NCBI GenBank assembly: GCA_036387335.1
Contig: DASVTZ010000008.1
Location: 1 to 47,795 of the forward strand
Length of the DNA: 47,795 nucleotides
Direction of reading: 5' to 3'
Origin: Longimicrobium sp.
GTDB lineage: Bacteria > Gemmatimonadota > Gemmatimonadetes > Longimicrobiales > Longimicrobiaceae
The notes beneath the pieces were generated by a model. The model saw only the letters and a list, made by a program, of their open reading frames with translations. It did not search any database and had not been told where the DNA came from. Positions 22,133 through 26,445 of the stretch are shown here, piece by piece (position 1 is the first letter of the stretch; every line of letters starts with the position of its first letter). A program made the translations under genes and the position numbers.

Positions 22133-23551
22133 TCAATCCACGTACGTCTCAAAGAACCCGGGCAGCCGCGCGACGATCCGCCCGTGCTCGCGGATGGTGG
22201 CGATGCCGCGCATCTGGACGAAGTAGCGGCGGCGGGGGCGCTCGCGGTCGGTGAGGTGGACGGAGGCGACGTCGACGTCCACGCGCAGGGCGGTGGAGGG
22301 GTCCTCGAAGTGGAAGCGGCGCGGGACCTGGATCGTGCGGGCGGCGGAGCGGGCGGGCTGCGTCTCGGTGAAGCGGATGGGGCCGGGGCGGTGCACGCCG
22401 CGGACGCCGTGCGCATCCACCAGGTAGGCGAAGAGGCCCTCGGCGGTGGTGGAGTCGCCGCGAACGACGCCGTAGAGGAGCGACATCTCCTCGCCGGAGG
22501 CGGAGCCCCACTCCCACGACACGTTCCTCCACACGCCCCAGTTGTGGTCGTGGTACGCCTGCGCCCCGCGCACCGCCTCGCAGCGCGGAAGGCACACCGT
22601 CCCCTCCGCGCGGGCGAAGAGGGCCGGGGCGACGTAGCCGGAGACGAGCGCCGCGCCGCCCAAGTCGGTCGGGGGAAAGTAGCGGCGCGGGGCGGGGGTG
22701 ACGCGCAGGTCCACGCGCGCGCCGCCCGCGTCGGCAGTCACGTGGTAGACGCCGTTCTCCTGCTTCACCCCCGCGCGGTCGCCAAAACGCAGGTCGGCGG
22801 AGGCGGTGTCGAAGCGGACCTCGCGGTCGGTGAGTTTGCGGGTGAGGGAGCGGTGAGTGCCGTCCGGCTCGCGAACGGTCATCAGGATCTGGCCGCCCCA
22901 CTGCCCCGGCGTCCCCACGCGCCCGCCTACAGCCAGCGTGAGGTAGACCCAGCGGCGCTCGTCCAGCACGACGTTGAAGTAGTGCCACTCCGCCCAGGTG
23001 CTGTCGCGCGCCGCCTCGCCGGTGGGCTGGTGGAAGTGGTCGATCTCGCGAAACAGCTGGCCGGCGGCGGGGGCGGCCCAGGCGCGGTCCGCGTCCGAAT
23101 CGTTCCACTCGCCTTCCAGCAGGGTGGGGAGCGCGCGCGCCGCCCGGGCACGGGAGGGGATCTCGCCGGTGCCGACGGTCTTCCAGATCCGGCCGCGCGC
23201 GAACAGCTCCACCTGCTTGCCGTCCAGGAGCGGCGACGCCGCCAGGACGCCGTGTTCCCGGCGCGCGCGCGGCGACTCCAGCACCTGGCGGTGGATGAAG
23301 CGCGCGTGGTCGATTCCAAGGAAGAGCGACGCGACGCCGCCCGACTTCAGCATCTCCGCGCTGACGCCGGAGGGGACGACGACCACGTCGCCGCCGCCGA
23401 CGAGCTCCTTGTCACGCGCCTGCTCCAGCATTGCTTCGCCGACGGCGAGGAGCACCACCATCACCGCCACGCCCAGCGCGTAGCCGCCCAGCAGGAAGAG
23501 GGCGCGACCAGGGCGGTTGCGCAGCTCGGCGAGCGCCAGGCGGAGGATCAC
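22133..23551 (-). CDS. AttH/CrtC lipocalin-like protein fused to a permease N-terminus
   Basis: Two parts are visible in 472 residues. Residues 1-110 resemble the start of a MacB/FtsX permease: LALAELRNRPGRALFLLGGYALGVAVMVVLLAVGEAM is one membrane helix, then GGGDVVVVPSGVS and a start of the periplasmic domain. Residues about 165-472 are an AttH/CrtC lipocalin-like domain (EWHYFNVVLDERRWVYLTLAVGG; HDHNWGVWRNVSWEWG at 334-349; C-terminal YFVQMRGIATI). In other bacteria AttH stands alone beside AttE, F and G. The GTG start overlaps the ATPase stop (GTGA). The domain faces the periplasm if the helix is a signal anchor. Confidence 0.8.
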   Translation of the reverse strand: MILRLALAELRNRPGRALFLLGGYALGVAVMVVLLAVGEAMLEQARDKELVGGGDVVVVPSGVSAEMLKSGGVASLFLGIDHARFIHRQVLESPRARREHGVLAASPLLDGKQVELFARGRIWKTVGTGEIPSRARAARALPTLLEGEWNDSDADRAWAAPAAGQLFREIDHFHQPTGEAARDSTWAEWHYFNVVLDERRWVYLTLAVGGRVGTPGQWGGQILMTVREPDGTHRSLTRKLTDREVRFDTASADLRFGDRAGVKQENGVYHVTADAGGARVDLRVTPAPRRYFPPTDLGGAALVSGYVAPALFARAEGTVCLPRCEAVRGAQAYHDHNWGVWRNVSWEWGSASGEEMSLLYGVVRGDSTTAEGLFAYLVDAHGVRGVHRPGPIRFTETQPARSAARTIQVPRRFHFEDPSTALRVDVDVASVHLTDRERPRRRYFVQMRGIATIREHGRIVARLPGFFETYVD

Positions 23552-24246
23552 GGGCGCTCTCCCGCGCTCACCACCAGCCCGTCCGCCATCTCCACCACGC
23601 GCGGCGCGCTCTCGGCCACCTTGGCGTCGTGGGTGACGACGACCAGCGTGGTTCCCTCGCCGTTGAGGCGCGCGAAGAGGGCGATGATCTCGGCGCCGGT
23701 GCGGCGGTCCAACTCACCCGTAGGCTCGTCCGCGAAGATCACCTCCGGCCGGTTCGCCAGCGCGCGCGCGATGGCCACGCGCTGCTGCTCGCCGCCGGAG
23801 AGGTGCGGCGGGCGATGGCCGGTGCGGTGCCCGAGGCCCACGTAGTCCAGCAGCTCACGAGCACGGTCGCGGCGCTCGCGCTTGGGGACGCCGGCCTCGG
23901 CCATGGGTAGCTCCACGTTTTCCGCGGCGCTGAGGACGGCCAGGAGGTGGAAGCGCTGGAAGATGAAGCCGACCCTCCGCAGCCGAAGGCGGGAGCGCGC
24001 GCCCTCGTCCAGCCCGTACAGATCCTCACCCAGCAGGCGCACGGTCCCGCTGGTGGGCGGATCGATGCCGGCCAGCACGTTGAGCAGCGAGCTCTTTCCG
24101 CACCCCGAAGGCCCGACGATCGCCACCATCTCGCCGGCGGCCACCTCCACCTCGACGCCGCGCAGCGCGCGCACGGCGTCGCCCTGGTAGGGGTATTCCT
24201 TGATGATCCCGCGCGCCTCGATCACGCGCCGTGGCTGCTCCGTCAC
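23548..24246 (-). CDS. ABC transporter ATP-binding protein, LolD/MacB type
   Basis: The 232-residue protein has Walker A GPSGCGKS (45-52), Q-loop FQRFHLL, signature LSGGEQQRVAIARAL (from 149) and Walker B VIFADEPTGELD (about 169-180) with the MacB-type EPTGELD. It would power the two permease-like proteins of this locus, corresponding to AttE. Its stop overlaps the AttH-like gene by four bases, while 220 bases of hairpin repeats separate it from the upstream permease gene. Confidence 0.92.
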   Translation of the reverse strand: MTEQPRRVIEARGIIKEYPYQGDAVRALRGVEVEVAAGEMVAIVGPSGCGKSSLLNVLAGIDPPTSGTVRLLGEDLYGLDEGARSRLRLRRVGFIFQRFHLLAVLSAAENVELPMAEAGVPKRERRDRARELLDYVGLGHRTGHRPPHLSGGEQQRVAIARALANRPEVIFADEPTGELDRRTGAEIIALFARLNGEGTTLVVVTHDAKVAESAPRVVEMADGLVVSAGERP

Positions 24247-25642: not shown

Positions 25643-26445
25643 CGCTCCCCCAGCTTCTGCGGCGCCACCTGCACCACGCGCCACGCGGCGAGCGCGCCGG
25701 CCAGCGCGCCCAGCGCCAGCCCCAGCAGCGCCGCCAGGACGACGATGCGTGGCGTTACAAGTGCGAAGCGCAGCGTCGTGTCGTAGACCTGCGCGTAGTA
25801 GGCGTTGACGACGCGCGCCACGATCATCCCCAGCACCGCCCCGGCCGCGCTCCCCACCACCGCGATCGCGATCGCCTCCAGCACGATGGCGCGGAAGACG
25901 GTTCCGCGGCTCACCCCGATCAGCCGCAGCACCCCCATGTCGCGCCGCCGCTCGTCCACGCGGATCACCATCACGCAGAGCAGGAAGATGGCGCTCGCCA
26001 GGATCGTCACGATGCCGATGGCGTCGTGGAAGCGCGAGACCACGGCAAAGGTGGCGCTGGTGCGCTCGGCCAGCCCCGTGCTGGAGTAGGCCCGCGTGCC
26101 GAGCGCAGTCGTCTCGATCCACCGCGCGGCCGAGTCGCCCCGCGCGCCGGGCGCAAGGACCACGGCGAAGCGGTCCACGCGGTCGCGGTTGGGGAGGAGG
26201 GCTTCCAGGTCCGGCAGGTGGAAGCGGATCTCGAGGTCGTTGCGGGCGATGCGGTTGGGGTCCGCGGCGCGCTCGAAGACGCCGGCGACGACGAAGGGGC
26301 GCGGTGGACGGCCGCTGGCGAGGGCGCGCACGCGCACGGTGTCGCCCACCTGCAGCGGCACCGTTTCGGCCAGGCGGCGCTCGATCAGGAGGCCGGGGAT
26401 TGGGTCGGCCGCAAGCGTCGCGGCGAGCGCCAGGCTCAGGAGCAA
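25639..26445 (-). CDS. ABC permease lacking its N-terminal third (truncated)
   Basis: The 268 residues cover the second half of the periplasmic domain (GLLIERRLAETVPLQVGDTVRVRA) and the complete FtsX domain with RRRDMGVLRLIGVSRG and three helices. Compared with the neighbouring 390-residue permease about 150 N-terminal residues, including helix one, are absent; the frame upstream is unrelated and meets a family B repeat. I chose TTG 26445, which has GAGG at good spacing and starts a short hydrophobic stretch (LLSLALAATLAA). The nearby ATG at 26462 is in another frame and stops after eight codons. It may be a working short form or a decaying gene. Confidence 0.6.
   Translation of the reverse strand: MLLSLALAATLAADPIPGLLIERRLAETVPLQVGDTVRVRALASGRPPRPFVVAGVFERAADPNRIARNDLEIRFHLPDLEALLPNRDRVDRFAVVLAPGARGDSAARWIETTALGTRAYSSTGLAERTSATFAVVSRFHDAIGIVTILASAIFLLCVMVIRVDERRRDMGVLRLIGVSRGTVFRAIVLEAIAIAVVGSAAGAVLGMIVARVVNAYYAQVYDTTLRFALVTPRIVVLAALLGLALGALAGALAAWRVVQVAPQKLGER

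Follow-up and report, generated by a model that had tools for sequence, protein, structure and literature searches.

A probable Type VII ABC system of Gemmatimonadota with a split first permease and an AttH-fold domain fused at the cut

Introduction

What does an ABC locus encode when one of its permeases looks truncated and its AttH-like protein begins like a permease? In Type VII ABC transporters, the stalks and periplasmic domains close upon ATP binding (PMC5985334). These machines are understood as intact permeases working with a separate periplasmic partner. A locus of another build is described here. The window, which is the whole stretch of DNA analysed, comprises 47,795 nucleotides of Longimicrobium sp. 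contig DASVTZ010000008.1 and comes from a 5.8-Mb Gemmatimonadota genome. An earlier note had read four genes in it as an AttEFGH-like locus with a permease start fused to AttH. No published description of this arrangement was found in a literature search with limited coverage of subscription journals.

Results

Gene layout

All four genes run on the minus strand from 26445 to 22133, in the order P1C, P2, ATPase and fusion (Table 1). The order and coordinates given in the earlier note (truncated permease, full permease, ATPase, fusion) were right. P1C overlaps P2, and the ATPase overlaps the fusion, by 4 nt each. P1C was matched in Pfam by FtsX (PF02687, E 1e-17). P2 was matched by MacB_PCD (7e-13), FtsX PF02687 (1e-14) and the lolCE model (1.8e-13). 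The ATPase scored with the MacB (3e-72) and LolD (7e-67) models, below the equivalog cut-offs, and with the YbbA model (7e-66). The features by which the Type VII superfamily is recognised, an FtsX-type TM domain in both permeases and a MacB/LolD-type ATPase, were found. The large periplasmic core between TM1 and TM2 lies in one chain in P2 and is divided over two chains in permease 1. Permease 1 can be described as a variant Type VII subunit, whose core domain would be whole only with P1N and P1C joined.

Table 1. Features of the locus and its surroundings in the window
Feature	Position	Strand	Description
P1C, C-terminal half of permease 1	25639..26445	-	TTG start; 267 aa; signal-peptide-like N-terminus, second half of MacB-type periplasmic core domain, FtsX TM2-4
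P2, intact MacB/LolCE-like permease	24470..25642	-	TM1, periplasmic core, TM2-4
ABC ATPase, MacB/LolD/YbbA type	23548..24246	-	Pfam ABC_tran 3e-34
Fusion P1N::AttH	22133..23551	-	472 aa; GTG start overlapping the ATPase stop
P1N, fusion residues 1-160	23072..23551	-	TM1/stalk helix (14-47) and first half of periplasmic core domain
AttH-fold double-barrel domain, residues ~161-472	22133..23071	-	Fold match to 2ich; invariant HDHNW, C-x3-C (320/324)
P2-ATPase intergenic stretch	24290..24460		Holds the dispersed palindrome twice; outside the system
Copies of the dispersed palindrome	21938-21961, 24304-24327, 24423-24446, 36549-36572, 36801-36824		
PAS/GAF sensor histidine kinase, large	26664-29690	-	Directly upstream of the operon; assigned by eye

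The dispersed palindrome, CCCTCTCCTGTTATCGGGAGAGGG, is a REP/BIME-like element, whose core is present in 121 copies in the genome of the window, often as inverted pairs 100-250 bp apart. Two of these copies lie in the 220-bp gap between P2 and the ATPase, in a stretch that appears to be a recent and unrelated insertion. Upstream of P1C in Gemmatimonadaceae loci (e.g. L012, L057, L062), genes for an MntR/DtxR-like regulator, an NRAMP transporter and a universal stress protein were seen by eye, and DUF72 and SURF1-like genes lie downstream in part of the loci. None of these stands beside the operon of the window. The recurrent genes accompany only part of the loci, and no constant neighbour was found as a clue to the substrate. 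Co-regulation with metal or oxidative stress is possible.

The AttH-fold domain

The AF2 model of the fusion has a mean pLDDT of 80, mostly above 85 past residue 185. Its top fold match was the AttH protein NE1406 (2ich; Foldseek E 1e-12; Z 25.3, 282 aligned, 3.4 Å). The CghA, Fsa2 and Phm7 cyclases, kievitone hydratase and 25-phosphosteroid lyase followed at Z 22-24, and unrelated barrels started at Z 7. By sequence, the domain matched neither CrtC (PF07143) nor Lipocalin_9 (PF17186) in Pfam. When the PDB was searched by sequence with the fusion profile, AttH was not among the matches; it was reached by the fold search alone. Residues ~160-472 are assigned as an AttH-like double barrel by fold only, on the predicted model. 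The earlier note had named an AttH/CrtC lipocalin-like domain, and the AttH fold and the HDHNWG motif stood.

All 118 sequences compared share the cluster H334-D335-H336-N337-W338, and E188, W189, Y191, N193, C320, C324, W341, W346 and W348 are likewise invariant. In CrtC, the essential residues are His239 and Trp241, which form an H-x-W pair, Tyr266 and Asp268 (R. gelatinosus numbering; PMC4717167). Judged by motif and spacing, H336-N-W338 is an H-x-W pair, Y360 is kept in 111 of the 118 sequences, and R, G or V stands at residue 362, which is presumed to correspond to the Asp. This position seems not to be conserved, and therefore CrtC chemistry is not implied. The pattern of residues leads us to expect an enzyme or a binding site other than that of CrtC.

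The AttH fold family includes enzymes, and catalysis is therefore at least as likely as carriage. The domain may instead be a tethered lipid chaperone, LolA- or Svf1-like, which would be compatible with the split permease described below. A role in lipid transport has been proposed for NE1406/2ich (PMC2954199), and lipoproteins are passed by LolCDE to LolA (PMC12646458). However, the nearest solved folds besides 2ich are enzymes, the invariant H-D-H-N-W cluster resembles an active site, and a tethered domain would be unable to shuttle across the periplasm. The chaperone is a possibility that we hold tentatively, at somewhat less than an even chance.

Three fusions (L054 3387-5702, L070 3049-5361 and L078 3046-5328) have an extra C-terminal class-A-beta-lactamase-like domain. 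It was matched by Beta-lactamase2 in L054 (E 7e-53), and SMMK, SSN and KTG motifs are present in all three. From these motifs, they can be read as three-part permease-half/AttH/serine-hydrolase-type proteins, with a further module appended to the same tether. The appended module favours the enzymatic, extract-and-modify reading and is no proof of it.

Complementarity of the permease halves

Fusion residues 21-155 of the window matched positions 5-117 of the 207 positions of MacB_PCD (E 3.8e-4, 21 bits), a match that is below threshold when taken alone, and MacB_PCD was found at the fusion N-terminus in 30 of 31 relatives. The P1C of the window gave no MacB_PCD match by Pfam. On the same model, P1C of relatives covered positions 119-206 (L033) and 123-205 (L048), and P1N covered 1-117 (1-115 in L009). 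When P1N (1-160) and P1C (16-267) of the window were joined, positions 5-205 of 207 were matched with 57 bits (E 3e-15). In the profile-profile comparison by HHalign, P1N aligned to P2 columns 1-145 (E 4e-8) and P1C to P2 columns 135-391 (E 3e-30). P1N also matched residues 6-113 of an intact MacB-type permease of the same phylum (L130; HHalign E 4e-12). The joined profile was collinear over 96-352 with E. coli LolE 87-343, the junction included (E 1.5e-3). The AF2 model of P1C aligned to LolC 139-398, LolE 142-414 and MacB 393-648; because Z is just 7-9, these alignments give fold-level support only and were used for mapping. The permease-like N-terminus claimed earlier is borne out over residues 1-155 by the MacB_PCD and HHalign matches, and these include residues 1-110, on which that claim had been staked.

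By sequence, P1N and P1C are complementary halves of one permease, and P1N is the missing front half of P1C with TM1, stalk and first half of the periplasmic core. With P1N as the front of the "truncated" permease, the P1C gene is probably neither broken nor a redundant subunit. The Porter of MacB consists of two pieces flanking the Sabre (PMC5985334). From this anatomy, the permease break would fall in the Sabre part.

A different reading takes P1N as just a membrane anchor, P1C as a degenerate or alternative 3-TM subunit, and a P2 homodimer with the ATPase as the real transporter. P2 is complete, and the AF2 model of the fusion alone has low confidence at residues 40-81 and 108-129, as expected of a vestigial segment. 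However, under the split model, too, half a domain is expected to be modelled with low confidence. Between them, P1N and P1C cover the core domain with hardly any gap or overlap, the invariant TM residues are retained in P1C, and P1C always accompanies P1N. The mean pairwise identity is 0.58 for TM1/stalk and 0.54 for the core half of P1N, and 0.48 for the AttH domain. P1N is better conserved than the domain that it would anchor and is therefore unlikely to be a mere anchor. We consider the anchor reading unlikely. The mutual information over 118 sequences did not bear on the choice: P1N-P1C pairs were not enriched, and the test is uninformative because the within-P2 positive control also lacked enrichment.

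The earlier proposal that the fusion tethers the lipocalin is kept in part. The covalent link between a permease segment and an AttH-type domain stands, and it would hold the domain in the periplasm at the transporter. The segment is no spare tether, being the missing front half of P1C. The lipid-like substrate and the direct hand-off that the note also put forward are kept as possibilities.

Topology of P1C

Having lost TM1, P1C would need other means to place its periplasmic half outside. The N-terminus of P1C in the window is signal-peptide-like (MLLSLALAATLAA), and with the TTG start its segment is MLLSLALAATLAADP. In 55 of 55 relatives with readable 5' ends, the P1C domain is preceded by an N-terminal segment of strong hydrophobicity, and the same hydropathy was reached in only 10 of 114 control frames. 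In relatives, the segment often closes in a typical AxA-Q end, e.g. MKTLLRGVAAVALGVAIASPLAAQ. It is predicted to keep the topology of P1C right.

Conservation and spread

The nearest relatives are from Longimicrobium and Longimicrobiaceae MAGs. About 80 genome contigs carry tblastn-confirmed relatives of the entire 472-aa fusion (38-93% identity), and nearly all of these relatives span residues 1-472. The other three genes lie upstream of the fusion in unchanged order wherever the contig is long enough. The profile of 31 fusions (A1) matched 155 of 395 Gemmatimonadota genomes, almost always at full length, a count that takes in a few weak or partial matches (six weak ones). The two halves are retained together: the system is present in 75 of 200 genomes searched, and both halves are separate genes in 74 of these, split at profile position about 159. 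The remaining genome (G220) has a fragmented assembly. No unsplit permease copy was detected at E<=1e-25 among the 200 genomes. In plasmids, tblastn found no unsplit or canonical AttEFGH relatives of other phyla; the genome counts are for Gemmatimonadota only. As in AttEFGH-type loci, the ATPase, the permease units and the AttH-fold protein belong to one operon wherever the contig is long enough. A separate exported AttH with intact permeases was found in no member; in all of them AttH is fused to P1N and permease 1 is split.

Several candidates were set aside. Weak lone matches in G166 and G183 come from AttH/CrtC-like genes that stand by themselves, with no ABC genes beside them (L128 7154-8209 and L129 8353-9684, with YHDHNWG or YHDHPWG motifs; the L128 protein had no Pfam match), and the weak matches in G033 and G322 proved to be MacB-type permeases of the ordinary kind. 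In G189 (L111, L112), the halves seemed to lie 0.84 Mb apart with both kept. This separation was rejected as a scaffolding artefact because the 327-bp ends are 99.4% identical and lie beside N runs. A record titled Candidatus Kuenenia stuttgartiensis (L073, CALQGY020000018.1) is probably a mislabelled Gemmatimonadota record (G254:C18, of the class of the window).

A sequencing frameshift, which the earlier note had allowed for as a source of the fusion, is ruled out by the full-length fusion across the phylum, down to 38% identity, and in the isolate Roseisolibacter sp. H3M3-2 (L024). Most members are MAGs and in one of them, G189, the operon is broken by scaffolding, but the identical junction phylum-wide, in the single-contig genomes G132 and G156 and in the Roseisolibacter isolate, which has all four genes, already refutes fusion and truncation as assembly or gene-calling artefacts of MAGs and leaves that idea with next to no probability.

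Discussion

The locus probably encodes a Type VII (MacB/LolCDE/FtsX superfamily) ABC mechanotransmission complex with a naturally split first permease and AttH fused at the cut. The complex would consist of P1N::AttH with P1C, P2 and two ATPases, P1 and P2 forming a heterodimer. In it, P1N would give TM1, the stalk and the first half of the periplasmic core domain. P1C, behind its own export signal, would give the second core half and TM2-4, and the AttH-fold domain would be borne on the cut end of P1N. The proposal for YbbAP is that hydrophobic molecules are extracted and then presented to TesA, in the way that LolCDE presents lipoproteins to LolA (PMC12646458). This logic, taken with an AttH domain fused into one permease half, leads to the machine proposed here. 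By analogy, the complex may take a lipid-like molecule out of the inner membrane and pass it to the fused AttH domain, and the domain may then modify or carry this molecule. In plain terms, the pump of these soil bacteria probably pulls greasy molecules from the membrane, and it appears to have its own receiving protein on board.

A fuller version of the proposal is that the separately exported halves of a natural split permease reassemble in the periplasmic domain, with an AttH-fold enzyme in the break, as an ATP-driven membrane-lipid extract-and-modify machine that an ancient rearrangement within the operon fixed throughout the class Gemmatimonadetes. We regard this version as evenly balanced between right and wrong. 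In N. europaea, NE1404 is the ATPase gene associated with AttH NE1406 (PMC2954199). As a hypothesis of origin, an ATPase-P1-P2-AttH operon could have been tandemly duplicated, and deletions could then have given P1C-P2-ATPase-P1N::AttH.

A lineage with a permease cut in its periplasmic domain and a partner fused there indicates both the seat of the partner and the tolerance of that domain for a break. The locus offers a covalently locked system in which the hand-off of a hydrophobic molecule from transporter to partner might be captured, which is relevant to LolA, TesA and AttH. It also places a gene cluster that about 40% of the sampled Gemmatimonadota genomes carry in a functional frame for the first time. 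A warning should be added that automatic annotation will label one permease half "truncated".

Comparison with known systems

The AttH-fold domain has the same fold as solved hydratase, lyase and cyclase enzymes (Z 22-24). To our knowledge, no transporter half is fused to CrtC-type hydratase, lyase or cyclase enzymes. The domain has an H-x-W pair like that of CrtC (PMC4717167), as judged by motif and spacing, whereas the position of Asp268 seems not to be conserved in the fusion. NE1406 (2ich, DUF2006) has the AttH double-barrel fold and, as in AttEFGH loci, is encoded with a LolD-like ABC system (PMC2954199). However, NE1406 is a separate protein (PMC2954199), and its sequence identity to the AttH-fold domain of the window, which misses the Pfam models, is ~16%. 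The present locus differs from AttEFGH-type loci in that AttH is fused to half a permease and the other half lies at the opposite end of the operon.

LolCDE-LolA resembles the locus in its permease pair and LolD-type ATPase, and P1N+P1C and P2 match lolCE weakly and collinearly. In contrast, LolC and LolE are each an intact protein, the shuttle LolA is soluble, and the locus scores far below the lolCE equivalog cut-off. YbbAP-TesA of E. coli shares MacB/LolCE-like core domains, a YbbA-type ATPase and a periplasmic partner proposed to receive hydrophobic molecules of the inner membrane (PMC12646458). It differs in that an unsplit double permease, YbbP, works there with a separate periplasmic lipid hydrolase, TesA, whereas here one permease is split and the AttH-fold partner is fused. 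The locus is likened to lipid extraction by YbbAP-TesA as a functional analogy.
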